Source: Bolinopsis microptera (Eukaryota; Ctenophora; Tentaculata; Lobata; Bolinopsidae). Taken from it: DNA of 64,000 nucleotides. A program made the translations under genes and the position numbers. The notes under the pieces are model-generated. The model made no database searches. It was not told the origin of the DNA and saw only the letters and a program-made list of their open reading frames with translations. The DNA lies in assembly GCF_026151205.1 (NCBI RefSeq), contig NC_087079.1, positions 1,054,001 through 1,118,000 of the forward strand, read 5' to 3'. Below, piece after piece: positions 25,210 through 62,192 of the stretch; positions within the stretch are counted from its first letter, which is position 1, and each line of letters begins with the position of its first letter.

Positions 25210-25372
25210 GTTACCATAGTTACCATAGTTACCATAGTTACACTAGGCATTGCACAGCTATATAGTGTGGGCTATGCATTGTACAGCTAGCGTGGGCTAG
25301 ACATTGCACAGCTATATAGTTACCATAGTTACACTAGGCACTGCACAGCTAGTGTAGGCTAGGCATTGCTAT
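25190..25372 (+). repeat. Tandem copies of the gene's terminal coding bases and stop
   Basis: The coding end ACAGCTAGTGTGGGCTAG (stop at 25207-25209) recurs downstream as ACAGCTAGCGTGGGCTAG and ACAGCTAGTGTAGGCTAG, mixed with GTTACCATAGTTACC units and GCATTGCACAGCTA. These lie in the 3' UTR. CCNK shows the same kind of stop-codon duplication at 48.4 kb. Confidence 0.85.
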
Positions 25373-26600: not shown

Positions 26601-27579
26601 AAAAATTATTGACTTTGATTGTTGGATAGTGTTTACTATTAGTCCCAGGAACAGAAGGGACTGTTTTTCATTAACAAGGACTGTTTGGATCCTATTTTCA
26701 GAGATGAAGTATAATTAAATAGTTTAATTACTACTATTATGCATCATCTTGTGATAATATTACATAAAACCAGGGTTTCAGTTAAGAATAAGATTATAAG
26801 ATAAAAATGGCAAAGTTTGCATTTACTATAATTGCAGTTCTCTATGATAATTTGTAAGCAAAAATTTCGATCAATAAAACTTGTATTGACTTTCTATTTA
26901 ATAACAAACCACTGGTAGCAGGGGGATTGTCAGTGAAATGCCGTCTCATTTCTTTATATGTGGGCGATCGCTGAATTTCCCGATCCATGATAACATTTAA
27001 ACGTCTAATATCATATTATTGATCATGAGAGTCATTTCTTATTTCTGTGATTTTTATCTTTGCAACCCTATCCTATGTTGTATCACGTGGTGACCCCCAC
27101 TGTCGCTTCACTATAGTCTTCGACGATACAGGGGGAGCCGCACACTTCGTGCGCGGCGGGTCATACAACGTATGACAAATCCTATGGCTATGCAAGCTGA
27201 CACGGATCTGTGAATGATAATTCATGATTAATTGAACAAAAAATGCGGCCACATATGTTTTGTGGATGCCTGCTTAAATTCTGATCCGTGATGCAATGGC
27301 GTATAATATTTGCCTGTTCATGAGCATGAAGATAACTGATAAGGCGGAGTGACAGGCTAGGATGACCACCACCCATTAAATCATTTTATTTATATTTTAT
27401 GCAACCCTATGCTCATTGTTTATGCAAGCTGCACAGATCAGATGTAAAAATGTCATTCTTTGCGTGAGGTTGGTGTGGAACCATATTTTCTTGATCAAAC
27501 CAACGCTACACTGCATGGCAACATAATACATAATAGTAATACGTGACTACCGCACAAAGTTTGCGCGCGAATAGAAGTA
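26601..27579. other. Intergenic, upstream of LINE
   Basis: AT-rich; no gene seen. Contains the hairpin-rich module at 27085-27180. Sequence from about 27185 to 27579 may belong to the LINE or to the same repeat as the module, but I cannot define its ends. Confidence 0.4.
27085..27180 (+). repeat. Hairpin-rich dispersed module, copy 1
   Basis: The module starts ATCACGTGGTGACCCCCACT and ends GTCATACAACGTATGACA. It holds a perfect 7-bp inverted repeat (GTCATAC AAC GTATGAC), a GC-rich hairpin (CCGCACACTTCGTGCGCGG), and an outer stem between the CCCCCACTGT side and ACAGGGGG. Copy 2 is at 31079-31175. Strong local pairing conserved between copies suggests a structured RNA or element terminus. Confidence 0.7.
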
Positions 27580-29185
27580 TACACTTACAACTCGTCAATT
27601 AAGTCGACTTCTGATATGAGTATACTTCCCCTGAAAAAAGTGAGCAATATACTTGCACCAGTGCTTAGCTGCCTAGTCTCTGCGTCTCTACATCAGGGGA
27701 AGTTTCCGCATAAATTGAAAATCGCGAAAGTAGTTCCACTTCACAAAGGTGGGTCACGTGCTGAAGTTTCAAACTATCGACCTATCTCACTACTCTCATG
27801 TTTCTCAAAAATCTTTGAAAAAATTATGCAAGCGCGACTATTAGATCACTTAAAGACAGAGAAAATCCTATTTGACTCTCAATACGGATTTCGGGCTGGG
27901 CACAGCTGCAAACATGCTTTACTAGAAGCCCAAAACCATATTCACAGGGCACTAGAAAAAAAGCAGGTCACAGCACTGCTTCTATTGGACTACAGCAAGG
28001 CCTTTGACATGGTTGACAGCAGTATTCTTCTGAGAAAACTTGAGCACTATGGAGTTCGGGGGTTGGCTTTATCTTGGTTTCACTCATATCTAACCGATAG
28101 AGAGCAATACGTGAGCGTCAACAACTGCAAGTCCTCTCACCTCAAACTTAACTACGGAGTACCACAGGGCTCCATTCTCGGACCAATTCTGTTCATAATC
28201 TACATCAACGACCTTCCTCAGATTAGTAATTTAGCTAAACATATTTATTTCGCTGACGACGCAAACCTAATAATAAGTACAGATACATTTGAACAACTTA
28301 ATGCATTGGTGAATGAGATTCTGACTTTGATAATTGATTGGGCTACTAATAACGGGCTTAAATTAAATGCTAGCAAAACTAAATATATGATCCTTACAAA
28401 TAAGAAAACTAAGGATATAGAAATCTACATGGGAGGTGAGCGACTAAAGCAAAGTTATCACGAAAAGTTTCTTGGCGTGATTATTGATACTAAGCTAAAT
28501 TGGGCCCACCACATTAGACATTTAGCCACTAAAGTATCTAGAAATGCGGGTATTCTCTACAAACTCAAAGGCTCAGTACCTAACAAAGCACTCAAGTTGA
28601 TATACAACAGCTTTGTTCAGTCTCACTTGTACTACTGCTGCACAGTTTGGGGAACAAGATCGCTAAACTCCGTTAAAAGAGTCTTCTCGGAGCAGAAAAA
28701 GGGCATTCGCGCTGCAGATAACCAATACCACCGCTATTTTTATGACAAAGATCTGAATAGCACACCTTCACACACAAAGGAAATTTTCAATAAACTAGAA
28801 GTATTAGCTTTACCGAACGTGATAGCTAAATGTATATTATGCTTAATGCACAAAGTTTATTCTAACACTAACTGCACCACCAAATATTATAAGAATGTTC
28901 ACTGTTTCAAACTTAAACGCACCTAGAAGAGAACCTGAGTTCTTTGCAGTACCATTTAACCGTTTATGTAATTCAGACAAGAGCATTTCTTACATTGGGC
29001 CTAAGTTATATAACCAAACAGTCAACATAATTAACAAGGACATAAAATATGTCACCACTTGCCTACAAGACAAATTCCTAAATTCATTCAAGTCTACAGT
29101 CAACAAGCATGTGCTTACTGCACAAGCACATAAACCGGATGACAAGGACTGGGACAACTCAAATTTCGTACTTTTGGAAATTTAA
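27580..29185 (+). mobile_element. Non-LTR retrotransposon (jockey/CR1-like), 5'-truncated, frameshifted reverse transcriptase
   Basis: The main frame (27616-28926, open slightly further upstream) encodes a reverse transcriptase: NYRPISLLSCFSKIFEK (RT1/2), QYGFRAGHSCKHAL, LLLLDYSKAFDMVD (RT3, first catalytic Asp), GVPQGSILGPILFIIYINDLP (RT4), YFADDANL (RT5, catalytic FADD), then the thumb region NGLKLNASKTKYM and LGVIIDTKLNW. One frameshift near 28915 moves the C-terminus (SISYIGPKLYNQ) into the frame ending at 29185. The apurinic endonuclease and ORF1 parts are missing, so the copy is 5'-truncated and dead on its own. No poly(A) tail or target duplication could be placed. Confidence 0.88.
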
Positions 29186-34544: not shown

Positions 34545-35165
34545 GGGTGGGCAACAATTGACCCCCCGACAATTGACCCCCCGACAATTTTCCCCCGACA
34601 ATTGACCCCCCAACAATTATCCCCCCGACAATTGACCCCCGACAATTAGCCCCCCTAACCCTAACCCTGACCCTGACCCTGACCCTGACCCTGACCCTGA
34701 CCCTGACCCTGACCCTGACCCTGACCCTGACCCTGACCCTGACCCTGACCCTGACCCTGACCCTGACCCTGACCCTGACCCTGACCCTGACCCTGACCCT
34801 GACCCTGACCCTGACCCTGACCCTGACCCTGACCCTGACCCTGACCCTGACCCTGACCCTGACCCTGACCCGATCAATTGATCCCTGTGTAATTACATGG
34901 GGGGTCAATTGTCAGGGGGTCACTTGTCGGGGGGTCAATTTTCGGGCGGTCAATTGTTGGGGGGTCAATTGTCGGGCGGTCAATTGTCGTACTAAGCCCT
35001 AGATTTCGTGAAAATTGACCCCAGTGTAATTACATAGGGGGTCAATTGTCGGGGGTCAATTGTCGTACTAAACCCTAGATTTCGAGACAATTGACCCCAG
35101 TTTAACTACATAGGGGGTCAATTGTCGGGAAGTCAATTGTCAGGGGGTCAATTGTCGCGGTACCT
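34545..35165. repeat. GACAATTGACCCC repeat with (CCCTGA)n core
   Basis: Left flank: repeated ACAATTGACCCCCC units (34550-34645). Core: CCCTAACCCTAACCCTGA followed by about 34 perfect CCCTGA hexamers (about 34655-34871). Right flank: inverted GGGGGGTCAATTGTC units with the spacers TGTAATTACATAGGGGG and TACTAAGCCCTAGATTTCG, ending GTCAATTGTCGCGGTACCTA. It is the same family as 22968-23213 in the other orientation. The frames of repeated RVRV or GSGS are by-products of the hexamer. Confidence 0.92.
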
Positions 35166-44904: not shown

Positions 44905-47900
44905 ATGTTGAACAAATGGATGTTCGATAAAAAGAAGCTGCGACAAACACCAAGTCAGAGTGATGGGGTTGATTATTTGACTGAGATACTTTATCGAAAA
45001 GAAGGTCGGTTAATTTTATATGTTAAGATTTAGAACTACCAGGCAGATGTGTGCTGCACTATAGCCAGGTTTTGAAGTAGCCTTTTATTGACAACTTAGT
45101 GCTTATTCTTATTCTTAAGCATTGCAGTGAAAAATGTTGATAACTTTGCGAACTGCAATAGCGTAGAGTGCAGTTGGGTTTCAAGTTTTGTCGAGATGGC
45201 CATGTGGCCATAATCCTATTATTATTATTATTATTATTATTATAACTTAATTTGTAAGTCTGTTTTTATCATAAAAACAGAAAGGTTCATTTCTTTCACT
45301 ACGGTATAGTAATATTTCATATTTGATATTTTCAGGTGCAAAATTTATCCAAGCAGCAGTAAAAGAACTTCGGCTTACTCATGATACCATGGCAACTGGT
45401 TGTGTATTCTTTCACAGATTCTTTATGTTCCACTCCTTTGAAAAATTCAACAGGTATGTGTGTTGAGTGATGATACGATGCAATCTTAAAAGTTTTAAGT
45501 CGCGAATCAGACAATTGTTTTGTCTGGAAACTGTTTTATTCATTGCCTAATAGATTTCAATAATATGATTTAAAACAGGTGGGTGATGGCTGCATCCTGC
45601 TTGTTTCTAGCTGGCAAAGTGGAAGAAACGCCCAAACTTAGCAAGGATATTGTACGGACAGCTAAGCATCTGTTGAGTAAGGAGCAGTTCACAGCATTTG
45701 CATTGAATCCAGTCGATGAAATGCTTCTTTACGAAAAGATTCTTCTCCAGGTGAACTTCTTTACTTTTTTCTGCTTTTTTGTTTGAAGTATATCTTTACA
45801 ACCTTGAAGTGATATTGAAAACTATCTTGTGCTTAGCTTCCAATTTAATACTCCTCACATTTTATTTTTAACAGCGAATTTAAAATAATCACACATTTTA
45901 TTTCAGACAGTGAAGTTTGACTTCAATATAATTCACCCATACAAGTTTATATTGAAGTATGCGAAGCAGTTCAGGGGAGAAAAAAATCGCAAAAGTGACG
46001 TGGTTCAGGCAAGATTTATATTTTGAAAGTACAATCTTGCAAAGTAAAACTGATGATTAGTTATCACTGCAATTATAACGCTAATTTACGTTTGAAAGCC
46101 GATAATTGAAAATAAGTCATCTGTTTTAAGTTCCATTCGGATTTCAGCTTCATGTTATATAATAAAGCAGTTACCACTTCTTAGGCCTACTGCAATTAAC
46201 AAACATTAGCTATATTATATGTCACCTAATTAGTTCCCCAACGTTTTAAGGTGCTCATGCTATATAATAAGTCATAAGTGTTAATAACAATTAATCACTT
46301 CTGAAATGCCAACACAACATTATATTTTGTATAATTAGTACTAGAACTAGAACATTATTCTGATGAAATTATAAATACCTCTGTTCTTTAAGTGTTACTA
46401 TCAAGTCCATAACACTTCTTTTCAGATGGCATGGAACTACTGTAACGAATCTTTCTGCACGCCTGTGTCCCTGCATTACACGCCTGATGTTATTGCGGGT
46501 TAGTTGAACTAGTGTCTTGGTTAAACTTACTTTATCAAGAGCTTTCTGAGATGGTCAAAACTTATTATTTTATAATAAGTTATAAATAGTATTTTAAATA
46601 TACTCCTGAAACTGTTTTCATGACTCCTGAAACTGTTTTCATGACTCCTGAAACTGTTGTCATGACTCCTGAAACTGTTGTTATGACTCCTGAAACTGTT
46701 GTCATGACTCCTGAAACTGTTGTCATGACTCCTGAAACTGTTGTTATGACTCCTGAAACTGTTGTCATGACTCCTGAAACTGTTGTTATGACTCCTGAAA
46801 CTGTTGTCATGACTCCTGAAACTGTTGTCATGACTCCTGAAACTGTTGTTATGACTCCTGAAACTGTTGTCATGACTCCTGAAGCTGTTGTCATGACTCC
46901 TGAAACTGTTTTCATGACTCCTGAAACTGTTGTCATGACTCCTGAAACTGTTGTCATGACTCCTGAAACTGTTGTTATGACTCCTGAAACTGTTGTCATG
47001 ACTCCTGAAACTGTTGTCATGACTCCTGAAACTGTTGTCATGACTCCTGAAACTGTTGTCATGACTCCTGAAACTGTTGTTATGACTCCTGAAACTGTTG
47101 TCATGACTCCTGAAACTGTTGTCATGACTCCTGAAACTGTTGTCATGACTCCTGAAACTGTTGTTATAACTCCTGAAACTGTTGTCATGACTCCTGAAAC
47201 TGTTGTCATGACTCCTGAAACTGTTGTTATGACTCCTGAAACTATTGTTATGACTGCTGAAACTATTGTTATGACTCCTGAAACTGTTGTCATGACTCCT
47301 GAAACTGTTGTCATGACTCCTGAAACTGTTGTCATGACTTCTGAAACTGTGACCCTCAGGAGCGTTGCTCACACTGTCTGCTAAGCGGTGTAAGTTCAGC
47401 ATTAGTCTCTCTAAAGACGTAGAGAAGGATGATCTGTACGAACAGATTGACGCCCCTTGGTGGGGCTATCTCATTGAGGTAAAGACGAACCAGTCTAAAT
47501 CAAATGTTGGTCCTTCTTATGTTTATTTTGATGCAATGAAACACAATCTTACTATATATAAAGCGAGACGATATATATATGTGTATATATCCGTGCCATT
47601 TTACTGACACCACGGCATCAACTTTAACGCGACTTTCCGCAAAAACCGTAAAACATATACAACTGAAACTTTTTTGACTGGGTCAAATGCTTTAATGGCC
47701 TTCAAATCAGCATGAAAAAATAAAAAATTGGCCAAGGAATAATAATTTTAGTGCCCAAAATTTGGACTCTCAAGTGGTGTCAAAAACGCGAATTAAATAG
47801 GTAATAATTATTTTAGTCTCTCGAGTCTTGACACCACTTTAGGGTTAGACGGGTTCCTGCTAGTTAGATATAATGTCTATTATATATAATTTAATATATT

Positions 47901-48436
47901 GTAGAAAAGTAGAAAAGACATACAAATTGTTTTGCTCATCTTTTTATAGTAAACAAAATTGTATTTAAAAATTGAATTAATATATTTTTCATCAATTATT
48001 GGAAACTAATTTCATGTTATTATATTTTCAGAGTTCCACCTCGGTAGACGACATAGAGGAGATTCAGAACATAATGCAGCGTCTCAGTGAAGAGAAAGCA
48101 GATCTTTACGAGGACGAGGTGGACGTTACAGCCTGCGACTCACCTGGTAACGAGGACAACGAACTGTCAGACGTTGACATAGAGGATGTAGCGCCGCCTC
48201 CCCCACCCCGCGATAACAAGCGACACATTCCTGGACTTGAGCCAAGTCAGCATGCGTCAAAACGCGCGGCGCTAAGAGACAGTGCTCCGAGTAATGGGAG
48301 TAAAGCAGACAGTATTCCCATGTTAGGAGAATCACACCCCCCTCCTCCTCCTGCACCCCCTTCAAGAAGGAGGGAGTCGGGGAGACACAGCAGGGACAAC
48401 CCCGGCATATATGATCCTAGCAGGGGTTTCTTATAG
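44905..48436 (+). CDS. CCNK: Cyclin K (362 aa), 7 exons
   Basis: Exons 44905-45004, 45336-45453, 45579-45750, 45907-46008, 46426-46498, 47360-47478 and 48032-48436 join in phase. Cyclin K activates CDK12/CDK13, which phosphorylate the RNA polymerase II C-terminal domain in the nucleus. Family marks: W.FDKKKLRQTPSQSDG at the start, FFHRFFMFHSFEKFNRWVMA and SCLFLAGKVEETPK (residues 79-92) in the first cyclin box, LLYEKILLQTVKFDF, HPYKFILKYAKQFRG, and PWWGYLIE closing the second box. The C-terminal tail has acidic and proline-rich parts (PPPPP near residue 283) and is shorter than the human tail. Intron 4 appears to start with GC (CAG|GCAAGA at 46009). Intron 5 carries a 21-bp minisatellite reaching the next acceptor. 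The last coding bases and stop are repeated twice downstream. Confidence 0.95.
46600..47352. repeat. 21-bp minisatellite in CCNK intron 5, touching the acceptor
   Basis: About 35 units of a 21-bp sequence (ACTCCTGAAACTGTTGTCAT plus G) with few variants. Because 21 is a multiple of three, frames stay open on both strands (repeats MTPETVV and SFRSHDN). The final unit reads CTTCTGAAACTGTGACCCTC followed by the AG acceptor of exon 6 at 47360, so the array and the 3' splice region are continuous. Confidence 0.95.
47479..48031. other. CCNK intron 6
   Basis: AT-rich, no exon. Starts GTAAAG and ends TATATTTTCAG. An imperfect inverted repeat pairs GACACCACGGCATC..TTT with the region around TTGACACCACTTTAGGG; ACTCTCAAGTGGTGTCAAAA lies between. 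This is weak. Confidence 0.5.
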
Positions 48437-48592
48437 CTCCAACTTTTCAGTCTACTTTTAAACAACCCCGGCATATATGATCCTAGCAGGGGTTTCTTAT
48501 AGTTCCAACTAAAAGTCTACTTTTAAACAACCCCGGCATATATGATCCTAGCAGGGGTTTCTTATAGTTCCAACTAAAAGTCTACTTTTAAA
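48397..48592 (+). repeat. Triplication of the CCNK coding end and stop codon
   Basis: A ~64-bp unit (ACAACCCCGGCATATATGAT, CCTAGCAGGGGTTTCTTATA, G, then TCCAACT..AAGTCTACTTTTAA) occurs three times. The first copy supplies the last codons of CCNK (DNPGIYDPSRGFL) and its TAG; the other two lie in the 3' UTR and repeat the same potential peptide end. Confidence 0.95.
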
Positions 48593-49199
48593 CGTGCCCA
48601 GAATTAGGTACCCTTGTTAGAGTTGAAATGCTCAGATCCCAGGCAGGGACTATAATATCATCTAGACTATATTCTAGTCTATCCAATATATAGTATCTAT
48701 ACTATCTAGACTATCAGCTATAATACTAATTTACTATCTGGATTATCTAGTCGGTAATGACTAATGTTATCAGATATAATGATGTTCATTGTTCAGGGTT
48801 ATAAGAACTGATAATAATAATTCACGCATCTTTAAATTCTTCAAGGGGTAAATATTTAATACAGAATAATGTTAGTTAATAACCTTACTCGCTGTGAGGT
48901 GTCTCTACTTAGAGATCAGGTGAATGAAAATAACTCTCATTACAACTATTACTGTTTGTTAATTAATTTTAATTTATAACCAACAATGTTTTACTGTTTA
49001 ATGAAGGTCGCTTTGGTCGGTAATAATATAATTGTATAATATCATGGTTCGTTACCAAGGGGATTATTACTCATAATAAATGTATTATTCTCAACCTAGA
49101 TTGGAAATGATGGCAATATATCTGGCAATATATCTCGTTATAATGTGATGACGTCACTGTGATATAATCTCCCGTTCCTATGGTTACTAGCTCACTTAC
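48593..49199. other. Spacer between CCNK and the FES/FER gene
   Basis: AT-rich with TATCTAGACTATC-type short repeats at about 48658-48752. TGATGACGTCACTG at 49146-49159 contains the CRE octamer TGACGTCA, about 40-50 bp before the FES/FER ATG, and is a plausible promoter element. No exon seen. Confidence 0.5.
49149..49156. promoter_or_regulatory. CRE-like palindrome TGACGTCA
   Basis: A perfect TGACGTCA, the consensus for CREB/ATF-type bZIP factors, sits about 45 bp upstream of the predicted FES/FER start codon. Position suggests promoter function; one octamer alone is weak evidence. Confidence 0.4.
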
Positions 49200-52100
49200 A
49201 TGAGATTAAGTGATAACGTACAATCTTTCCAATGCTGGGATGAACTCGTTGAAGAATGTCAAGGTACAAATTTAAAGATTTAGATGCTATTAATAAAATC
49301 AACTTCTCGTTGATTTAGCCATTTTACGAAACGAAAATGGGTAAAATAACGCCTGTAAAACTGAGAATAATGTCCGTAGAAAGAACACGTGACACAGTTT
49401 TCCTCTGTTAGGTGAACTTAAGTTTGTGGACGAGGTGAAGAGTTACTTCACACAGCGTAAGAAGCTAGAAGAGGACTATGCTGAGAGCATCAGACGTCTT
49501 GACTCCCAGTTTATTAAGCAATGTAATAACCTGACTACTACTTACGGGACTAAAACATGGTTAAAACTACTGGACCAGAGCTCCAGAGCTGCAGACTGTA
49601 TGAGCAAGGGGGTGGAGACCTTCGAGACGGTAATTAGTTGCTTAATCAATTAATTAGTTAATGAGTTACCTTCGAGACGGTACGATTATTTGCTTAATCA
49701 ATTAATTAGTTAATGAGTTACCTTTGAGGCGGTACAATTAGTTGTTTAATCAATTAATTAAATAATGAGTTACCTTTGAGACGGTACGATTATTTGCTTA
49801 AACAATTAATTAGTTAATGAGTTACCTTTGAGGCGGTACAATTAGTTGTTTAATCAATTAATTATTTAATGAGTTACCTTTAAAACGGTACGATTAGTTG
49901 TTTAATCAATTAATTAGTTAATGAGTTACATTCGAGACGGTACAATTAGTCGTTTAATCAATTAATTAGTTAATGAGTTACCTTTGAGACGGTACAATTA
50001 GTTGCTTAATCAATTAATTAGTTAATGAGTTACATTCGAGACGGTAATTAATTGCTTAATCAATTAATTAGTTAATGAGTTACCTTTGAGGCGGTACAAT
50101 TACTTGTTTAATCAATTAATTATTTAATGAGTTACCTTTAAAACGGTACGATTAGTTGTTTAATCAATTAATTAGTTAATGAGTTACCTTTAAAACGGTA
50201 CGATTAGTTGTTTAATCAATTAATTAGTTAATGAGTTACCTTTAAAACGGTACGATTAGTTGTTTAATCAATTAGTTAGATAATGAGTTACCTTTGAGAC
50301 GGTACAATTAGTTGCTTAAACAATTGATTATTTAATGAGTTACCTTTGAGGCGGTACAATTAGTTGTTTAATCAATTAAATATTTAATGAGTTACCTTTG
50401 AGACGGTACAATTAGTTGCTTAATCAATTAATTAGTTAATGAGTTACCTTTGAGACGGTACAATTAATTGCCTAATCAATTAATTAGTTAATGCGTTACT
50501 TTTTAGACGGTACGACTCAATTAGTTCGTTAATCAATTAATTAGTTAATGAGTTACTTAATTTATTTACGAGTATCGTGCCGTTTAAATTTTCATAGTCA
50601 ATATTTTTTCATCATTTATCGTCATTTATGTAATAAAAGGTTATTATTATTATAAAACAGGATCTTACCGACAAAAATGATTCTTAAAAATACCTTAATG
50701 CGGTAAACTGTACCTTTGAAACAGATTCTCCCAACATCTGTTGCATGCAGCTATATCTCCAATTTCGTTCAATTCTTTGCACCTTTCATACAATGCTTTG
50801 TTGCTTATCATACCTTTAGGCCATTTGATGTTTAAAATGGACCTGAGGTGTCTACGATGAAGTGTGTCCATTTTCTCCATGGTTGCTTTCTTAATAGGAC
50901 TCCAACTATTTGAGTTATAAATCAATACAGATACAACTTGAGCATCATATAACCTCAGCTTTCTTTCAAGGGAAATTTCAAGGGAAATTTTCTTACCGGA
51001 CAACCATACTTTTTCGAAGTTCTTAAAAGCAATCTCAGCTAGGATTCTCCTTCTTTGAATGTCCTTCTCAGACTATTAAAACATGTTTTTTAAAGCTCCT
51101 GCTACTGTAAACTTTAACTTGATTTAACAACCCCCTCCCGGCCCCCCCCCCTCCTCCAACTATTGCAATATGTTTTCAGGAGATTTTACCTGGAATAAGT
51201 GCGGTATCAGAAAAGAAGAAGAAAGCGATAATAGATCTGGTAACAACTAAAAACAGACTAGAATCTCACATGTCATTGGTCGGGAAGGATATCACAAAGT
51301 TACAGAACTCTATTGAAGATTTCGCTAAAGCAACAGAGGCTAACAAGATTAAATACGAGGAGGGGACGAGAGAAAGGTCAAATATTGATTATAAGGAGAA
51401 ATACAAAACAAGGTCAGTGTTATCGATTAAAATACAATTACTGCTGTAAAAACTAAATAGACATTTGTTGTTCACAGAAGTTATTAATTGATTAAGTTTA
51501 CTAATTAATAATTGATGGCAGTCATGTACTAATTATTACAGTGAGATTAATTATCTCCGGGTAACAAGTTCTAGAGTAGATTTATACGTATGCCCCCCCC
51601 CCCCTCCTCACCGCTCCCTCCTCCAGCCCCCCTCCCAGAACTCCAGAAATCAGTCATTAATATTACAGTGAAACCTCTATATTAATGTATTGACTTTAAT
51701 ATTGGGTACAGGAGTTATGCAGCACATAAATTACAAAACTCTTCTGATAGGTTCGTATCGAACGCAGCGAAACTTCAAGAGTACAACAACGACTATAACA
51801 TCCTTCTAAACGTAGTGTCAATGCATGAGGTGTCGTATATCGAGCACATCCTCCCTGCCTGGATAGACTACCATCAACATCTCCTCACTAACCAGGTCCT
51901 TAACCGTTAGTCTATTAATTAATTAGTCTATTAATTAATTAGTTTATTAATTAATTAGTCTATTAATTAATTAGTACATTAATTAATTAGTCTATTAATT
52001 AATTAGTCTATTAATTAATTAGTCTATTAATTAATTAGTCTATTAATTAATTAGTCTAATAATTAATTAGTCTAATAATTAATTAGTCTAATAATTAATT

Positions 52101-55100
52101 AGTCTAGTAATTAATTAGTCTAGTAATTAATTAGTTTATAATTAATTTGGACTTTATAGAGAAGTGTCGACTGTTGCAATCCTATCAGACATCTAAGGAT
52201 GACCTGATTAAAGCAGTCCAGCCCCAAGTTCGTTCTGGTAGAGTTTGGAGGCCTGAGACAGAACTGGAAGAGGCCAGAAGAGATTTGGTCTGTGAATCGG
52301 TGCGGGGGATGGTGCAACCTCAAAAAAGAGTTGGCATCGGTTTTGGTGACTGGAAAAAACCTTGGGAGAGGATGGAGAGCGGGAAAGAGAGAGGGAGGTT
52401 ATGCTGAGAGTGAAGGAGAACATTGAAAGAGAGAGGGAGGTGCAAGTAGGTTCTCTGGAGATGCAGAGCAGGTGGGGTGAGTGGAGAGAGCTCGTAATGA
52501 AGACGGATTTGAGCTGGCATACACTTTTTAAGTATGGTGACTCACTTATTGGGTTCATGCTAAGTGCTGTGTACGGCACCCTCTTAACCCCCTCTATGGT
52601 TTCCAAGTGGAGTGAAGATGAGGATGGGAAGTGCAAGTTATGTGAGGAGAGGATGGGCACAGGGGTCGACCGAGGGCAGGATTTTCGACCGAGGCCGAGG
52701 CCGAGGAAAATACAGTTAGTTAAGACCGAGGCCGAGGACAACCGAGGTTTCTTTTTTTTGACCGAGGCCGAGGCCGAGGCCGAGGAGTGCAAATTTTGAC
52801 CGAGGCCGAGGCCGAGGCCGAGGAATTTTGGCAGAAAAATTGTTGGAAAAAAGGGCATTGTTTATTAGGAAAAGCGCACTGTACCTGGATAGTACCTCAC
52901 AGTCTGAAGAAGACGATGAATTCGAAGAAAATAGTGAGAAGATAAGGAGGGAAGCTAACAGATACTTAAAAGACTCTCGAGTTGATTTATCATTTCAACC
53001 ATTAGTTTTCTGGAAAGCTAATAAGCAGAGCTATCCGAACCTTGCTGAGTGTTCAAGGAAATATATATCTGCGCCGGCGAGCTCAGCAGCACCAGAGAGA
53101 TTGTTTTCTACAGCAGGGCACATCCTGAAGTTAAATCGCCTCAGCCTTAAGCCAACAAACTTTGAGGGGTGCTTGTTTCTCAAAAAGAACATCGGAACAT
53201 TTGGGGACGACTTCGGCCCCTGTCCAAATGAATTTGAAGCCCCAAATAAAGAGGACTGTCCCCCTTCTGAGCTGTGCACAGAAGATTATTCTGATTCAGA
53301 GTGCTCAGATATTGTCATTTCATCAGACGATGAATCTTAGACTATGATATTTTTAGTTTTGTGTCCTGGTCAATTGGTCGTTTTATTTTCAATTTTACAA
53401 ATTCGTTTACATAAACCTCTGTAAGTCTGTAGAAAAATTCCCAAAATTTCAAGAAAAATCCTCGGTCAAATCCTCGGTAAAATCGTCAAATTTCGCCGAG
53501 GCCGAGGAATTTCGAATCTATTTTTGACCGAGGCCGAGGCGAACCGAGGAATTGTCCTCCTGACCGAGGCCGAGGCCGAGGCCGAGGAAAAATCGCCATT
53601 CCTCGGTAAAACCGAGGCCGAGGCCGAGGACTCGGTCGACCCTTGGATGGGCACCATTCAGCACATTTTGGCTGGGTGTAAGGTGGCCCTTAGTCAAGGA
53701 AGGTATAGATGGCGGCACGACAAGGTTCTGAAGCAGATCTCTGAACAGGTTGTCTTCCATTGTGATCGCCGAGTGAACACTTATAAGAACAAGGCCGGCG
53801 ATGGAAGGCAGTTCATTGATTTTGTTCCTGCTGGGAAAAGAAAAGCAGGTACAGACGACCGGAAGGAGAGTCGTGGTTTTAGGATCCTGAGTGGGTATCG
53901 GGATTGGATAGTGCTGTCAGACCTTGAGGGGCAGCTTAAGTTTCCCAGTGAGATTGTGGAAACACGGCTGAGGCCGGACCTTGTGATATTCTCAAGGTCG
54001 GCAAAGACAGTTATTTGGTGGGAGCTAACAGTACCATCTGAAGAGCGGATCGCTGAATCGCACGAGTACAAGCTCGACCGATACAGCGGTCTGCAGGCTG
54101 AGATTCAGGCAAAAGGTTGGTGCTGTTATAATGCCGCAGTCGAAGTTGGAGCTAGGGGAGTGGTTGCGCAGAGTTTGGAGAGAGCTGCGAGGAGGATTGG
54201 TTTTAGGGGAAGAGAGCTGAAGAAGCTGGTACGGGACAGCGGGAAAGAGGCAGCCCACTGTTCCAGATGGATTTATTTGTTATCGAGAAAGAGGGAGTGG
54301 GAGTTCAGGAAGGTTGGAGCTTGAAAGTTCACTATAACATCTAGAGGTACCATAAACGTTATCTCGTCGCCAATTGCGAGCTCTAACGGGTCTCCTCAAG
54401 TGACTCTCGGATCAGATGGTGGTTCAAGGGTGGACTGCTGGGGCGCCTGACAGGAAACCGTATTGCGATTAAAGCCCCGAAACGGTGTCAGGTTGGTAAC
54501 TGATGATTCTGATCCATGCTCCTGTGAGTTTGCTGTTGTATCTCAACTCGCTAAACTGAGGCATCTCCGCATCTTGGGTGAATATGCGTACATCTTCATA
54601 CTAAACCCAGGTGTGGCATGTGTCAGTGAATACGGGCGAGCGGATGCAATAGCGAAGGTGGTGTGGCAAGGCCTAAAAGACACAGTCAGATAGTTGTCAG
54701 CTCGCTGACTGTAAGGGAGAAGGTATATCCGTATTTCGCTGCTACTGATGCAGTCCTTGATCTGGCAATCAAGGCTTCTCTGTTTTTCGTCTAACTATGT
54801 ACCGTTGGGCTTGTGGAACCCTTAGGGGGGACATACATAGGTTAGAATGGTTTTGCGCACCAAGAGGAGTGAGGGAATGAGGGTTGAAGAGAGAGAGCTA
54901 GAGAGTTGTTAGGGTGGTTAGGATCAGTAGGTGGAGTGTTTGGTTGGAGCGTTCTGTTTTTGCTGTATAGCATTTTAGTCACTCCGCAGTTTATTAACTG
55001 TGTCTCAACTCTGAACCTCCGAATAAGTGCCTACAGGTTTACTGAAGGCACAAGGTTTGCTTCCTTTATCATATTTTATAGATAGACAAGGTTATTGGGA

Positions 55101-58100
55101 TATTAACAATATCAAATCCGAAGATTGATTGGGGACCAGCTTTGCTTACTGGCCAATGTTTACTTTAGATATTATATATTATTATAGATACAAAATTGAT
55201 GTAAAAAAGTTGCACAAAATACTCAGTAACTCCTAACCTCTATATGACTGATAAATGATAAATGTGACCGCCCCTCAGATTGCTGATATCAAGTCATTGC
55301 TGAGGTTTAGTTTCGAGATACTTCTCCATCATGACGAGGGTTACACGCTGGCTATGTCCAACATCTACTCTTACATCAGCAAGATTAATTTCGACTCTGA
55401 GTACACCGACTTCACCTTGTCCCACGACCGGTGCAACACCTTGAAACCATGTAAGTAACTATGGTAACTATGGTAACTATAGTAACTATGAGTACACCGA
55501 CTTCACCTTGTCCCACGACCGGTGTAACACCTTGAAACCCTGTAAGTAACTATGGTAACTATGGTAACTATAGTAACTATAGTAACTCTGAGTACACCGA
55601 CTTCACCTTGTCCCACGACCGGTGTAACACCTTGAAACCCTGTAAGTAACTATAGTAACTATAGTAACTATAGTAACTATAGTAACTCTGAGTACACCGA
55701 CTTCACCTTGTCCCACGACCGGTGTAACACCTTGAAACCCTGTAAGTAACTATAGTAACTATAGTAACTATAGTAACTATAGTAACTCTGAGTACACCGA
55801 CTTCACCTTGTCCCACGACCGCTGCAACACCTTGAAACCCTGTAAGTAACTATGGTAACTATGGTAACTATAGTAACTCTGAGTACACCGACTTCACCTT
55901 GTCCCACGACCGGTGCAACACCTTGAAACCCTGTAAGTAACTATAGTAACTATGGTAACTATAGTAACTCTGAGTACACCGACTTCACCCTGTCCCACGA
56001 CCGCTGCAACACCTTGAAAGTTGAAACCCTGTAAGTAACTATAGTAACTATAGTAACTCTGAGTACACCGACTTCACCTTGTCCCACGACCGGTGTAACA
56101 CCTTGAAACCCTGTAAGTAACTATAGTAACTATAGTAACTATAGTAACTATAGTAACTCTGAGTACACCGACTTCACCTTGTCCCACGACCGCTGCAACA
56201 CCTTGAAACCCTGTAAGTAACTATGGTAACTATAGTAACTATAGTAACTCTGAGTACACCGACTTCACCTTGTCCCACGACCGGTGCAACACCTTGAAAC
56301 CCTGTAAGTAACTATAGTAACTATGGTAACTATAGTAACTATAGTAACTCTGTGTACACCGACTTCACCTTGTCCCACGACCGGTGCAACACCTTGAAAC
56401 CATGTAAGTAACTATGGTAACTATGGTAACTATAGTAACTCTGAGTACACCGACTTCACCTTGTCCCACGACCGGTGCAACACCTTGAAACCCTGTAAGT
56501 AACTATGGTAACTATGGTAACTATAGTAACTATAGTAACTATAGTAACTCTGAGTACACCGACTTCACCTTGTCCCACGACCGGTGCAACACCTTGAAAC
56601 CCTGTAAGTAACTATAGTAACTATGGTAACTATAGTAACTATAGTAACTCTGAGTACACCGACTTCACCTTGTCCCACGACCGGTGCAACACCTTGAAAC
56701 CCTGTAAGTAACTATAGTAACTATGGTAACTATAGTAACTATAGTAACTCTGAGTACACCGACTTCACCTTGTCCCACGACCGGTGCAACACCTTGAAAC
56801 CCTGTAAGGAACTATGGTAACTATGGTAACTATAGTAACTCTGAGTACACCGACTTCACCCTGCCCCACGACCGGTGTAACACCATGAAACCCTGTAAGT
56901 AACTATGGTAACTATGGTAACTATGGTAACTATAGTAACTCTGAGTACACCGACTTCACCTTGTCCCACGACCGGTGTAACACCTTGAAACCCTGTAAGT
57001 AACTATGGTAACTATGGTAACTATAGTAACTCTGAGAACACCGACTTCACCTTGTCCCACGACCGGTGTAACACCTTGAAACCCTGTAAGTAACTATAGT
57101 AACTATAGTAACTATAGTAACTCTGAGTACACCGACTTCACCTTGTACCACGACCGGTGTAACACCACGAAACCCTGTAAGTAACTATGGTAACTATGGT
57201 AACTATGGTAACTATGGTAACTATAGTAACTCTGAGTACACCGACTTCACCTTGTCCCACGACCGGTGTAACACCTTGAAACCCTGTAAGTAACTATGGT
57301 AACTATGGTAACTATAGTAACTCTGAGAACACCGACTTCACCTTGTCCCACGACCGGTGTAACACCTTGAAACCCTGTAAGTAACTATAGTAACTATAGT
57401 AACTATAGTAACTATGGTAACTCTGAGTACACCGACTTCACCTTGTCCCACGACCGCTGCAACACCTTGAAACCCTGTAAGTAACTATGGTAACTATGGT
57501 AACTATAGTAACTATAGTAACTCTGAGTACACCGACTTCACCTTGTCCCACGACCACTGCAACACCTTGAAACCCTGTAAGTAACTATGGTAACTATGGT
57601 AACTATAGTAACTATTTACTATAGTAACTCTGAGTACACCGACTTCACCATGTCCCACGACCGCTGCAACACCTTGAAACCCTGTAAGTAACTATGGTAA
57701 CTATAGTAACTATGGTAACTCTGAGTACATCGACTTCACCTTGTCCCACGACCGCTGCAACACCTTGAAACCCTGTAATTAATTAGTTAATTACGTGCTT
57801 TAAGTATCAATTAATAACGGTATGAAATGTTTGCTGTTGGATCCCGAAAAACGATTTTAAATAACTTATATCAAGAAATTATCAATATTTATCATATTAT
57901 TTTATGTCGAGTCAGTACATTACGTATTTGAAGGTGGATATGCAAGTTATTACTCCTTTTAGGTAACGAGGAGTAGTAACTATAGTAACTATTACTCCTG
58001 TCAGGTAACGAGGAGTACAACACGTCTCTCCAGAAGTACACCTCTCTAAACCTGCCCATAAAGCAGCTAATAGTTAACGAGCTGACTGACTACACACTGC

Positions 58101-61100
58101 GTGCTAAACTAGATGCTCACAAGACAGACCTGAAGTATATAGACGAGAAGCTGGAGGCGAAGTCTCAGAAACTGGAACAGTATGAGACTGAGGGTGGGGA
58201 GAAGACTGACGAGTCTAAGGTTATTTTTAGGTTTTATTATTTTATAGTTTATTTATTTTATGATATTATACTGGTAATAAATATACTCTTATAAACACCT
58301 CCGGGGGCGGTCCGGGACATTTAATTGTAAATGGGAATGCCTCCCAGAGATCCTAAAAAATATAATTTTATTTAAATATCATTAATTATAAATGACTGAA
58401 TTTTAAAATTTTGTTTCGAATTTGAATTCAAATCTATTATCTAATAAAATAACAATATTTGTTTGTTTAGAAACTGAACATCAAGTTATCTATTATATAC
58501 TAATAAAATAACAATATTTGTTTGTTTAGAAACTGAACATCAAGGCTCACTTGCATGAGTTAGGCGCACAGAGATGCCGGTACCAGATGACAGTGAACTT
58601 TATATCAGATAGTGTAGAGCAGTGGAAGGGGAAACCGTTAGAGCCGTTCTACAAACTACTCCCTTGTACTTTAGACCCTATCAGAGGGAACACACTGTCT
58701 AACATCAGTCAGAGTATGATGTTACCGCAGTGTTTGGGAGCTGTCTCTCCTGCTACTCAGAGGTAAGCTCCCCCCAGTGCACCCCACCCCCCTCCTCCTG
58801 CAATATATTCTAGATGTTGAATATATTCTAGAAGTTGAGTATATTCTAGATTCAGTTAAATAGAGTATGACGAAATGTTATAACTGTAATTATGGAATAA
58901 TATTAATTATTCGTATAATAATATTATTTTCCCAGACGGCCAAATGCAACTCTAACTAAGATCAAGAATCTTCTGACACTGGGACGACAGACTTCGTTCG
59001 ATAACACTAAAGACCTCAACCTTGGTAACTAAACTTTAATAACCTCCATTTCCCTGCATACATCTCATCTATCAATTATTAATACTTGCCCTGACCACGC
59101 TTTCTTTTGGTAACCGTCTGCTTCCACATTTTAAAATTATTCCAGAATTGACTAATAAGCAAATTTAATTGCAGAAAGTTTATTAATCCAAACGTACTTT
59201 ACCCACCGATCCTGTTGTTTGTTTGACCAAATATACGACAGGCCGGGTATGTACTAAACCAGTGTGGTGTGTTAGAGTGGTGTTCTAACTAGTGGCGTGT
59301 TAGTTACCTAGTTACCTAGTTACCTAGTTACCTAGTTACCTAGTTACCTAGTTACCTAGTTACCTAGTTACCTAGTTACCTAGTTACCTAGTTACCTAGT
59401 TACCTAGTTACCTAGTTACCTAGTTACCTAGTTACCTAGTTACCTAGTTACCTAGTTACCTAGTTACCTAGTTACCTAGTTACCTAGTTACCTAGTTACC
59501 TAGTTACCTAGTTACCTAGTTACCTAGTTACCTAGTTACCTAGTTACCTAGTTACCTAGTTACCTAGTTACCTAGTTACCTAGTTACCTAGTTACCTAGT
59601 TACCTAGTTACCTAGTTACCTAGTTACCTAGTTACCTAGTTACCTAGTTACCTAGTTACCTAGTTACCTAGTTACCTAGTTACCTAGTTACCTAGTTACC
59701 TAGTTACCTAGTTACCTAGTTACCTAGTTACCTAGTTACCTAGTTACCTAGTTACCTAGTTACCTAGTTACCTAGTTACCTAGTTACCTAGTTACCTAGT
59801 TACCTAGTTACCTAGTTACCTAGTTACCTAGTTACCTAGTTACCTAGTTACCTAGTTACCTAGTTAGAGTGGTGTTCTAACTAGTGGCGTGTTAGTTACC
59901 TAGTTACCTAGTTACCTAGTTACCTAGTTACCTAGTTACCTAGTTACCTAGTTACCTAGTTACCTAGTTACCTAGTTACCTAGTTACCTAGTTACCTAGT
60001 TACCTAGTTACCTAGTTACCTAGTTACCTAGTTACCTAGTTACCTAGTTACCTAGTTACCTAGTTAACACTGTAACCTCTAGTTACCTAGTTACCTAGTT
60101 ACCTAGTTACTTAGTTACCTAGTTACCTAGTTACCTAGTTACCTAGTTACCTAGTTACCTAGTTACCTAGTTACCTAGTTAGAGTGGTCTTCTCTGTACT
60201 ATAGTAGTGACTAGTGGTGTGTTAGTTACCTATTTACCTAGTTACCTAGTTACCTAGTTACCTAGTTACCTAGTTACCTAGTTAGAGTGGTATTCTCTGT
60301 ACTATAGTAGTGACTAGTGGTGTGTTAGTTACCTAGTTACCTAGTTACCTAGTTACCTAGTTACCTAGTTACCTAGTTACCTAGTTACCTAGTTACCTAG
60401 TTACCTAGTTACCTAGTTACCTAGTTACCTAGTTACCTAGTTACCTAGTTACCTAGTTACCTAGTTACCTAGTTACCTAGTTACCTAGTTACCTAGTTAC
60501 CTAGTTACCTAGTTACCTAGTTACCTAGTTACCTAGTTACCTAGTTAGAGTGGTGTTCTAACTAGTGGCGTGTTAGTTACCTAGTTACCTAGTTACCTAG
60601 TTACCTAGTTACCTAGTTACCTAGTTACCTAGTTACCTAGTTACCTAGTTACCTAGTTACCTAGTTACCTAGTTACCTAGTTACCTAGTTACCTAGTTAC
60701 CTAGTTACCTAGTTACCTAGTTACCTAGTTAACACTGTAACCTCTAGTTACCTAGTTACCTAGTTACCTAGTTACTTAGTTACCTAGTTACCTAGTTACC
60801 TAGTTACCTAGTTACCTAGTTACCTAGTTACCTAGTTACCTAGTTAGAGTGGTCTTCTCTGTACTATAGTAGTGACTAGTGGTGTGTTAGTTACCTATTT
60901 ACCTAGTTACCTAGTTACCTAGTTACCTAGTTACCTAGTTACCTAGTTAGAGTGGTCTTCTCTGTACTATAGTAGTGACTAGTGGTGTGTTAGTTACCTA
61001 GTTACCTAGTTACCTAGTTACCTAGTTACCTAGTTACCTAGTTACCTAGTTACCTAGTTAGAGTGGTCTTCTCTGTACTAGAGTAGTGACTAGTGACTAG

Positions 61101-62192
61101 TGACTAGTGGTGTGTGTCTAATGTTGACTTCTAGCTCTCTAACTCTATGAGTTAACCCTGATAGGGTGTCTGGTTTTATTTGTCTTATTTGTCTCTTGAC
61201 CCCCCACCGCTTTACTGTCTCTTGAAAGGTTGAGAAGTTGTGTATTATAACATTATACCTCTTATTATCACCTACATTTGTTTCATGTGTGTGTGTATTG
61301 CTTGCGGAGTTGTGTCTCTACTGAAGTGAGGCACTGTTTCAAATATGATTTAGTTGTAAAAAAGTAAAAGTAAAAAGTAAAAAGCCCCACAACCTCGTTC
61401 TGACTTATTACTGTGAAGAGAAGAATCATGAATAAAAATATTGATGAAAATATTATATATTATATAGTTTACTCACAAACTACGCAACTAAACCCCCTAA
61501 GCTAAGTTAAGCCACTAAGCTAAGTAAACCCGCTAAGCTAAATAAACCCACTAAGCTAAGTAAACCCGCAGGAACACCAGTAGCGATGAAGTGGGAGGAA
61601 GATGAAGATAAGGACTATGTAATAATGACGAAGGAGGATGAGGCTTCCAACAGTTCGGGTAACAGTAACGAGGAGGAGGAGGCTGAGTGCCCTAAAGTAC
61701 TTCTAGAGACCGACTCTAATGTGAGTAAGGATTATTGTTCACATTTAAACTGGAAACATAAACCAACCAAAATAACTTATTGAAGTATTATCCCCGAAAT
61801 GAAACTACTTCTTCTATCTCTCGAGAAAGTAACAACACGATCACTGCACTAGTACAGTGATATGCTGCACTAGTAGTACTGCACTAGTACAGTGATATGG
61901 GACCCCGCTTTACTACCAGTCCCTCTTCAGGACTCGCTGGAGAACCAGCCGTGGTTCCACAACGACATAACCCGGCAAGAAACAGCAGAGCTGCTCCAGA
62001 GTAAAGGACAGTTTCTGATCAGGAAGACTATAGACTCTAAACGTCGCACTGCGGTTCTTGTGCTGAGTGTGAACGCTGGGAGTGTCGGGATCAAACACTT
62101 TATAATGCAGATCAATGATAAGGGACAGTTTAGATTAGAGGGAACCTGGTTCAATTCCATCCAACAGCTTCTTAACTATCATATTGATACTG
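49200..62192 (+). CDS. FES/FER-type non-receptor tyrosine kinase, N-terminal 606 codons (partial)
   Basis: Ten exons join in phase: 49200-49263, 49412-49629, 51180-51412, 51712-51895, 55279-55450, 58005-58219, 58530-58762, 58936-59024, 61572-61720 and 61931-62192; the gene continues past the window. Order: F-BAR membrane-binding domain (from about residue 5; KSYFTQRKKLEEDYAESIRR is its typical start), coiled coil (residues ~290-400; TDLKYIDEKLEAKSQKLEQY), acidic linker (EEDEDKD, NEEEEAEC), then an SH2 domain from about residue 520 (PWFHNDITRQETAELL; FLIRK with the phosphotyrosine-binding Arg near 550; HFIMQ; FRLEGTWFNSI). F-BAR plus SH2 in this order and spacing is diagnostic of FES/FER; the kinase domain should follow. 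Such kinases act at membranes downstream of receptors and cadherins. The SH2 reads FLIRK rather than FLVRE. Every second intron is filled with arrays that include the exon edge. Confidence 0.92.
49618..50565 (+). repeat. ~52-bp array containing the exon 2 donor
   Basis: About 18 units. Each contains ACCTTCGAGACG|GTA or a near variant (TTTGAGACGGTAC, TTTAAAACGGTAC), that is the last 12 bases of exon 2 plus the 5' splice site. This is followed by GATTAGTTG.TTAATCAATT and AATTAGTTAATGAGTT. The first unit is the genuine exon-intron border at 49629/49630. Confidence 0.95.
50695..51070 (-). pseudogene. LINE reverse transcriptase C-terminal fragment
   Basis: A minus-strand open frame (51003-50695, extendable to about 51070) reads DIQRRRILAEIAFKNFEKVW, GKKISLEISLERKLRLYDA, SVLIYNSNSW and MDTLHRRHLRSILNIKWP, the region after the RT domain in many LINEs (LYDA..VSVLLYN..SW...LHRR.LR..L.IKWP). 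It ends abruptly at a stop, with no other parts nearby. It lies in FES/FER intron 2 in antisense. Confidence 0.75.
51900..52140. repeat. 14-bp AT-rich array next to the exon 4 donor
   Basis: About sixteen units of TTAATTAATTAGTC(T)A start within ten bases of the donor (ACCAG|GTCCTTAACC). The array contains many TTAATTAA palindromes. The retroelement fragment starts right after it. Confidence 0.93.
52141..54720 (+). mobile_element. LINE fragment with CCHC and restriction-enzyme-like endonuclease, split by hAT
   Basis: The left part (52141-52651; two frames, shift near 52390) includes WRELVMKTDLSWHTLFKYGD and ends CKLCEERM. The right part (53654-54324) resumes GTIQHILAGCKVALSQGRYR and WRHDKVL, then RPDLVIFSRSAKTVIWWELT and HEYKLDRY. 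Ignoring the insertion, the pieces form a C-x2-C...H-x4-C knuckle, an RHD motif, and a PD...E...K nuclease core. That order matches the C-terminus of non-LTR elements of the R2 superclade, which cut target DNA with this nuclease. The RT domain is missing (5' truncation). Sequence after 54324 is probably 3' UTR; the end near 54720 is approximate. It sits in FES/FER intron 4. Confidence 0.75.
52660..53645 (+). mobile_element. hAT-family DNA transposon derivative (986 bp) with 8-bp target duplication
   Basis: Terminal inverted repeats are CAGGGGTCGACCGAG on the left and CTCGGTCGACCCTTG on the right (one mismatch in the TIR). The 8-bp duplication GATGGGCA flanks the element exactly (52652-52659 and 53646-53653). 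An open frame (52828-53340) encodes the transposase C-terminal dimerisation domain: LVFWKANKQSYPNLAE, SSAAPERLFSTAG, and NRLSLKPTNFEGCLFLKKN. The N-terminal BED finger and the catalytic DDE part are missing, so this is an internally deleted, nonautonomous copy. Subterminal GACCGAGGCCGAGGCCGAGG repeats in both orientations are probably transposase binding sites. It is inserted into the LINE fragment, so it is the younger insertion. Confidence 0.93.
54721..55278. other. Rest of FES/FER intron 4
   Basis: Noncoding; GGGTTGAAGAGAGAGAGCTA and other purine tracts near 54890, AT-rich towards the acceptor ACCGCCCCTCAG at 55278. No exon seen. Confidence 0.5.
55385..57776 (+). repeat. ~90-100-bp array containing 57 nt of exon 5 plus its donor, ~25 copies
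   Basis: Each unit includes GAGTACACCGACTTCACCTT, GTCCCACGACCGGTGCAACA and CCTTGAAACCCTGTAAGTAA, i.e. the last 57 nt (19 codons) of exon 5 and the GTAAGT donor. A variable number of AACTATGGT/AACTATAGT decamers follows. The first copy is the real exon edge (donor at 55451). Copies are nearly identical in the exon part and vary in the decamer count. In the exon frame each copy stops at once after the donor (TGT AAG TAA), so only the first donor gives the full-length protein. Confidence 0.96.
57777..58004. other. End of FES/FER intron 5 with a duplicated acceptor
   Basis: ATTACTCCTTTTAGGTAACG followed by AGGAGTA at 57950-57975 is repeated as ATTACTCCTGTCAGGTAACG followed by AGGAGTA at 57990-58016. 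The second supplies the exon 6 acceptor; the first would give a frame with an early stop (AGTAGTAA). Confidence 0.85.
58220..58529. other. FES/FER intron 6 with a duplicated acceptor
   Basis: The intron starts with a weak donor (AAG|GTTATT). TATTATCTAATAAAATAACA, ATATTTGTTTGTTTAG and AAACTGAACATCAAG appear first at about 58434-58482 and again at 58491-58544, so the acceptor and first 15 bases of exon 7 are present twice. The second is followed by the real exon. Confidence 0.85.
59279..61095. repeat. (GTTACCTA)n array with ~670-bp higher-order repeat
   Basis: Long perfect runs of the octamer GTTACCTA are broken by spacer cassettes: AGAGTGGTGTTCTAACTAGT (59278, 59865, 60547), AACACTGTAACCTCTAGTTA (60065, 60730) and AGAGTGGTCTTCTCTGTACT (60182, 60845, 60951, 61060 and a variant at 60286). 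The cassette order repeats with a period of about 670-680 bp, showing segmental duplication within the array. It fills FES/FER intron 8. Confidence 0.96.
61485..61571. repeat. 21-bp repeat reaching the exon 9 acceptor
   Basis: Four copies of ACTAAGCTAAGTAAACCCGC with minor changes. The last runs directly into the acceptor (AAACCCGCAG) of the exon at 61572. Confidence 0.9.
61721..61930. other. FES/FER intron 9 with a short inverted/direct repeat
   Basis: CACTGCACTAGTACAGTGAT and GCACTAGTAGTACTGCACTA give two copies of a GCACTAGTACAGTGATATG unit at about 61845-61900, a palindromic motif close to the exon 10 acceptor (CCCTCTTCAG at 61930). Confidence 0.6.

Follow-up and report, generated by a model that had tools for sequence, protein, structure and literature searches.

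Tandem repeats over splice borders

Tandem repeats that lie over exon-intron boundaries, at donors or at acceptors, are known from lancelets as mirage minisatellites and have been described in Adh3, the globin genes BflGb6 and BflGb9, TnC and PGBD5; in the accounts cited here, many copies keep their splice signals (PMC3087553, PMC3902484). These repeats were checked on RNA and are reported not to disturb splicing, and BflGb6 haplotypes are described with 6 and 3 repeat units (PMC3087553, PMC3902484). Splice sites within repeats are also found in human tandem repeats such as those of polyubiquitin UBC, whose introns are described as having dual-specific AGGT splice sites (PMC10809524). Tandem duplication of AGGT proto-splice sites as a route to new introns is attributed to Rogers (as cited in PMC3087553).

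The window, i.e. the whole stretch of 64,000 nucleotides of Bolinopsis microptera DNA that was analysed, contains an array of this kind, A1, at the donor of an exon in what appears to be a FES/FER-like kinase gene. Proteins of the genome also point to a ctenophore: for two glutamate receptors, out of three loci retrieved, the S1 ligand-binding segments had just four distinct PDB sequences as matches at 1e-20 or better, three of them from ML032222a, a Mnemiopsis gene, and the fourth being 4zdm from Pleurobrachia. With a longer query that took in the membrane part, vertebrate receptors came first and ML032222a, a chain without that part, was 38th among the 60 matches listed.

Array A1 and its exon

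The features around A1 are as follows (a slash in a sequence marks the splice junction):

55277-55278, plus strand: acceptor AG of the A1 exon (CAG before 55279)
55279..55450, plus strand: exon whose last 52-57 nt seed A1, in the open frame 55255-55455
55399..57782, plus strand: array A1, copies of exon end, donor and AACTATRGT; 25 units, the first copy being the exon itself
55451, plus strand: presumed authentic donor GTAAGT of the A1 exon
57950..58017, plus strand: doubled 3' splice site and exon start, two copies with a short AGTAACTAT-type stretch between them
58005..58219, plus strand: next exon after A1, the frame continuing as NTLKPC/NEEYNTSLQKY
58443..58544, plus strand: doubled acceptor and exon start, two copies 59 bases apart
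58530..58762, plus strand: exon whose open frame continues in phase from that of the preceding exon (58005..58219)

An array of some 25 copies across an exon-intron border had been proposed in the initial annotation, and 25 copies were indeed found at 55399-57782, each with the exon end. The units stand head-to-tail. Each consists of the last 52-57 nt of the exon, the 5' splice site that follows and a spacer of repeated AACTATRGT, a 9-mer and not the decamer first read there. Exon bases (52 nt), splice site GTAAGT and intron spacer are thus held together in a unit that recurs 25 times, as in a mirage. Ten units measure 91 bp and ten 100 bp, the others 89, 107, 109 and 109 bp plus the truncated last one; 20 of the 25 are distinct, and the repeat finder (TRF) scored the array 3316. 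The donors are near-identical, as had been claimed, although a perfect GTAAGT in every unit was too strong: it is present in 23 of 25, one copy reading GTAAGG and the truncated last copy GTAATT. The spacer comprises 88 windows of 9 bases, namely AACTATAGT (50), AACTATGGT (35) and three others.

The recent spread suggested earlier fits solely as local tandem amplification. When the 264.65-Mb genome was searched with a 32-base piece of the exon part (up to 3 mismatches), all 25 matches fell within A1 on one strand, and the reversed control gave none. The idea of a widely shared satellite in the spacer was rejected: in the 264 kb searched, a single run of at least two AACTATRGT was found outside A1, 27 bases long, on the other strand at 25213.

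The frame 55255-55455 passes through the first copy of A1, and joining 55450 to 58005 gives a phase-1 junction that keeps the reading frame. The edge of the A1 exon is supported because 55279-55450 runs in phase into 58005-58219. Both doubled acceptors downstream have a decoy followed by the presumed authentic site, with AG at 57961-57962 and 58003-58004 in the first and at 58469-58470 and 58528-58529 in the second.

Other features of the window

The remainder of the window holds several repeats and open frames:

11118-12176 and 21524-22468: further 7tm_1 frames
12892-15810, minus strand: open frame of 972 aa that carries LDL-receptor class A and 7tm_1 domains
27547-28926, plus strand: reverse transcriptase frame (RVT_1, 1e-38)
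34653-34871: 6-bp CCCTGA array, 36.5 copies, 99% matches, with arrays of a related CAATTGACCCCCC-type unit on both flanks in opposite orientation
46602-47350: 21-bp array, about 36 copies, several frames open on both strands (MTPETVV / SFRSHDN)
48396-48593: 65-bp array of 3 copies, overlapping the end of the open frame 47981-48436, which may be another border array
49618-50556: 52-bp array of 18 copies
52762-53340, plus strand: hAT transposase C-terminal region (1.2e-18)
59301..61060, no strand given: 8-bp TAGTTACC array, about 216 copies, interrupted, in a later intron of the FES/FER-like gene and not border-spanning; the unit is the complement of the GGTAACTA type

Identity of the gene

The SH2 end of the gene lies near the end of the window:

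61877..62192, plus strand: SH2 exon with a provisional 5' limit; the joined protein matches Pfam SH2 at 7.5e-13
62193, plus strand: presumed authentic donor GTAAGT of the SH2 exon

Joining the exons between 61.9 and 81.8 kb by way of the outermost splice sites yields a single unbroken SH2-linker-kinase with Pfam matches to SH2 (7.5e-13) and PK_Tyr_Ser-Thr (1.9e-78). The FES/FER-like assignment made at first reading is upheld by this protein: its best PDB match is Fes/Fps (9e-84), aligned over residues 3-337 of 341. For the kinase part alone, Fes comes third in the PDB, after a construct of two EGFR kinases and a reconstructed Src-Abl ancestor. The A1 exon and the other N-terminal exons had no Pfam match over the cut-off and no significant PDB match, so their membership in the FES/FER-like gene rests on order, strand and frame, which suggest that the A1 exon belongs to it. 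That the outermost copy is the authentic exon edge, as in a mirage, is supported at the protein level for the SH2-kinase exons and for the neighbouring gene GCAT; for A1's own exon, frame continuity alone is the evidence.

Further arrays in the FES/FER-like gene and GCAT

The repeat finder was run on 264 kb around the window and complemented by direct reading; coordinates are those of the window, positions above 64000 lying beyond it. Besides A1, the FES/FER-like gene has five donor-side arrays, the largest of 197 copies, as well as a single array on the acceptor side:

62168..69434, plus strand: donor array A2, 37-bp unit of 25 nt of exon, GTAAGT and 6 nt
69801-69957: 19-bp donor array, about 8 copies, GGCAAAG/GTCAGT
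72155-73489: 39-bp donor array, 34 units, KKFKHKNVVKLLG, 32 donors intact
73556-74555: 43-bp acceptor array, 23 units (21 intact), the unit combining a TACTAAC box, CTCAG and the exon start
74605-77135: 51-bp donor array, 50 units
81782-82677: 45-bp donor array, 20 units

A2 extends over 7.3 kb, with 196 full units and one partial unit, 36 of them distinct. The 39-bp and 43-bp arrays share one intron, where 32 intact donors face 21 intact acceptors and only the outermost donor-acceptor pair joins the kinase correctly. An exon edge is spanned by seven of the 13 arrays counted in introns of the FES/FER-like gene (six donor, one acceptor), a count of arrays of at least 79 bp that leaves aside shorter ones, including a 21-bp repeat before the exon at 77303. 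This repeat (77228-77300) and the array at 77705-77963 are of the same 21-bp CAGGTTAATTATGTGTATAAT type, with CAG/GT in most units, and precede the acceptors of two neighbouring kinase exons; the second reaches up to the acceptor of the exon at 77964 and no further, including no exon bases.

The adjoining GCAT has three acceptor arrays, of 37 copies of 38 bp, 2.8 copies of 57 bp and 71 copies of 27 bp, the last including only about 5 exon bases. The GCAT pieces match glycine C-acetyltransferase, the top model being TIGR01822 or PRK06939 for each of the five searched; one array marks the place where two of the pieces adjoin (model position 215/215).

Variation between the copies

The initial annotation held the exon part of A1 to be far better conserved than the spacer and took this as a sign of recent spread or of constraint on the splice-site part. 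Neither the comparison nor the constraint was borne out. The exon part has a π of 0.040 per site with 12 of 52 sites variable. The spacer has a mean π of 0.088 over all 88 windows, which falls to 0.034 when the A/G site is set aside and the remaining eight are counted; with the 85 regular windows the values are 0.054 and 0. Variation in the spacer is chiefly that of one A/G site and of copy number, and with that site excepted its conservation equals that of the exon part. Distinct changes in the exon part (9 nonsynonymous, 4 synonymous, with 121:32 possible) gave no sign of coding constraint. In the donor hexamers of five pooled donor arrays, a test that omits the 19-bp array, last units and A1 spacer, 6 of 64 distinct variants were found versus 8.3 expected from site numbers (P 0.26). 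These results gave no support to constraint on the exon or donor part, and none was detectable in the decoy donors; the hexamer variants being somewhat fewer than expected, a weak constraint on donors may exist. Acceptor sites are no less variable than other unit sites, with 2 variants in 6 acceptor sites and 10 in the 37 others in the 43-bp array, and 5 in 7 versus 4 in 31 in the 38-bp array, where the figure is inflated by the last unit entering the exon.

The first unit, which holds the authentic donor, is identical to the array consensus both in A2 (197 copies) and in the 39-bp array (34 copies). This implies that position, not local sequence, must mark the authentic donor. In A1 the authentic unit departs from the consensus at one base (CCAT instead of CCCT before GTAAGT), which it shares with one other unit.

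Origin of the arrays and choice of splice sites

The reading that we consider likely is that the arrays are mirage minisatellites, formed by slippage at the border and amplification and tolerated through exon definition, with copies that are probably neutral. A short direct repeat across the exon-intron border would have led to polymerase slippage or strand misalignment, duplicating the exon end and donor or, at acceptors, the intron end and exon start, and unequal exchange would then have amplified the duplicated unit. Two arrays were read by eye for such seeds. On either side of the 39-bp array stands AAGAAGTTC, first in the exon and again at +3 of the intron; copies of ATGCCGTACTA flank the 43-bp acceptor array. 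Such flanks are expected if the initial duplication arose by slippage on short direct repeats.

In donor arrays the copies follow downstream of the first donor, and in acceptor arrays they lie upstream of the last acceptor, so that the protein-preserving sites are the outermost ones. This arrangement suggests a choice by pairing across the exon and not across the shortest intron. Splice sites are probably paired in this way, the first donor being nearest to the acceptor of its own exon and the last acceptor nearest to the donor of its own exon, and the decoys would leave as intron. Selection would tolerate the arrays because the decoys go out with the intron.

Without their arrays the introns are short, at about 223 bp for A1, 266 bp for A2, 66 bp for the 39/43-bp pair and 166 bp for the 51-bp array; a tolerated duplication of 40-100 bp would therefore often cross an edge by geometry alone. 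Under a rough geometric null, with intron lengths measured by hand and arrays below 79 bp left out, 3.3 of the 13 arrays are expected to span an edge versus the 7 seen (P 0.004). Geometry explains about half of the edge-spanning, and tolerance alone may not explain where the arrays are placed.

It is a tentative extension, to which we give slightly less than even weight, that border slippage operates actively and widely in this ctenophore to lengthen introns and that a strict outermost-pair rule holds among hundreds of identical decoys. With the same reserve, such a rule would cover introns of only about 70-270 bp without arrays. If the reading is true, the intron with the 39-bp and 43-bp arrays is a ready natural experiment on the old question of how the spliceosome chooses among equal-looking sites. 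The authentic donor of A2, like that of the 39-bp array, shares its entire unit with decoys; sequence strength is naturally controlled there, position being the sole difference. Iso-Seq and RNA-seq data for B. microptera are mentioned in PMC10232365. The arrays also suggest how introns grow.

Occurrence elsewhere in the genome

GGTAAGT occurred 6114 times as a triple spaced by gaps of 20-50 bases, as compared with 66, 1292 and 681 for the permuted motifs TGAATGG, GGATAGT and TGATAGG; these are overlapping hits, the number of arrays being much lower, and a few long arrays abound in GGATAGT itself. About ten array places were listed from the triples and two were inspected (near C1:37 kb the array start was not reached). 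At C1:428.5 kb, an array with a 54-bp unit containing AAAG/GTAAGT starts where a frame with a weak likeness to Sushi ends (Pfam Sushi 0.0025, under the cut-off). Some of the listed places have one unit in common and one 54-bp family is an open frame on the other strand, which indicates that not all are border arrays.

Exons chosen by homology gave a different picture. Sixty matches (37 tyrosine-kinase, 23 TCP-1) were taken from hit lists before their sequence was seen, picked as likely parts of multi-exon genes and not at random, in 24 loci of which three were inspected letter by letter and the others by repeat finder alone. No border-spanning array of at least three copies was found at any of the 60, whose match ends are not all exon ends, and an array lay within 25 nt of 3 of the 120 match ends, all three on the acceptor side. 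Under one filter, repeats covered 6.4% of the sampled loci versus 19.8% of the 264 kb without N. That every exon has such an array is ruled out by the 60 sampled matches, and together with the lower repeat coverage they mark the FES/FER-GCAT region as a hot spot, not the rule. One of the TCP-1 loci (L050, C13) has at 3249-5076 a 30-bp array of 61 copies, the unit containing CTAACC and a pyrimidine-rich tract, which stops about 20 nt short of the exon acceptor and does not include it.

Alternative explanations

Other accounts can be given of the repeated donors. They may form a functional decoy array, in which repeated U1 sites would recruit U1 snRNP and be kept by selection; such decoys might raise transcription, block premature polyadenylation or tune intron removal. 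High donor integrity is consistent with this (23/25 in A1, 195/197 in A2, 47/50, 19/20 and 32/34 in the 51-, 45- and 39-bp arrays), as is the excess of GGTAAGT triples over the three permuted motifs. An array that crosses a donor would, however, repeat GGTAAGT even without selection, the hexamers show no significant excess of conservation over the rest of the unit (P 0.26), acceptor arrays occur too and the 60 sampled exon matches have none. The proposal is improbable, and the analysis gave no evidence of a function.

It is marginally less probable again that splicing enters the arrays stochastically, as in human polyubiquitin, and yields mRNAs with variable numbers of a repeat peptide. Two arrays keep the frame without stops, as this would require, over 34 units (39-bp) and 20 units (45-bp), but use of a decoy gives a stop or a frameshift in four of the six donor arrays (A1, A2, 19-bp and 51-bp), and inserts would land inside or beside the kinase fold. 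Moreover, the A1 site, CCAT/GTAAGT, has no AGGT core and cannot act as a dual site.

An assembly artefact or a wrong copy number is the least probable account and looks unlikely, long near-identical arrays such as the 7.3 kb of 37-bp units being hard to assemble but the units differing (A1 with 20 distinct units out of 25, A2 with 36) and nine more border-spanning arrays lying at different edges of two genes.

Comparison with known systems

In a limited search of open papers, ctenophore genome papers included, no report of border-spanning arrays in ctenophores was found, and the phrase 'mirage minisatellite' had no match in the open-literature search. As far as that search reaches, the novelty lies in the phylum, in the scale and in donor arrays that face acceptor arrays.

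Intron gain as ascribed to Rogers resembles the present arrays in that tandem duplication involves splice signals; it creates new introns, whereas the ctenophore arrays lengthen existing ones. The human dual-specific repeats, as described, are alike in carrying splice sites in tandem repeats and in that repeat expansion is a source of intron sequence (PMC10809524). In them a single site works in both roles, as donor and as acceptor, and introns measure multiples of the unit length (PMC10809524), while A1 donors have no AG before GT and A1 units vary in length. The AGGT of a dual-specific repeat intron is absent from A1, which reads CCAT/GTAAGT or CCCT/GTAAGT.

By its features the object appears to be of the same kind as the lancelet mirages as they are described: tandem arrays cross splice borders, donor and acceptor kinds occur and splice signals are kept. 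The differences are those of phylum, a ctenophore and not a chordate, and of evidence, the arrays being known here from DNA and lancelet splicing from RNA. Copy number also differs, with up to 197 copies compared with the 6 and 3 units of the BflGb6 haplotypes. Unlike the lancelet mirages in the accounts cited, the ctenophore arrays are many in one gene, and donor and acceptor arrays face each other in one intron. They would thereby extend the lancelet phenomenon to another deep animal branch.
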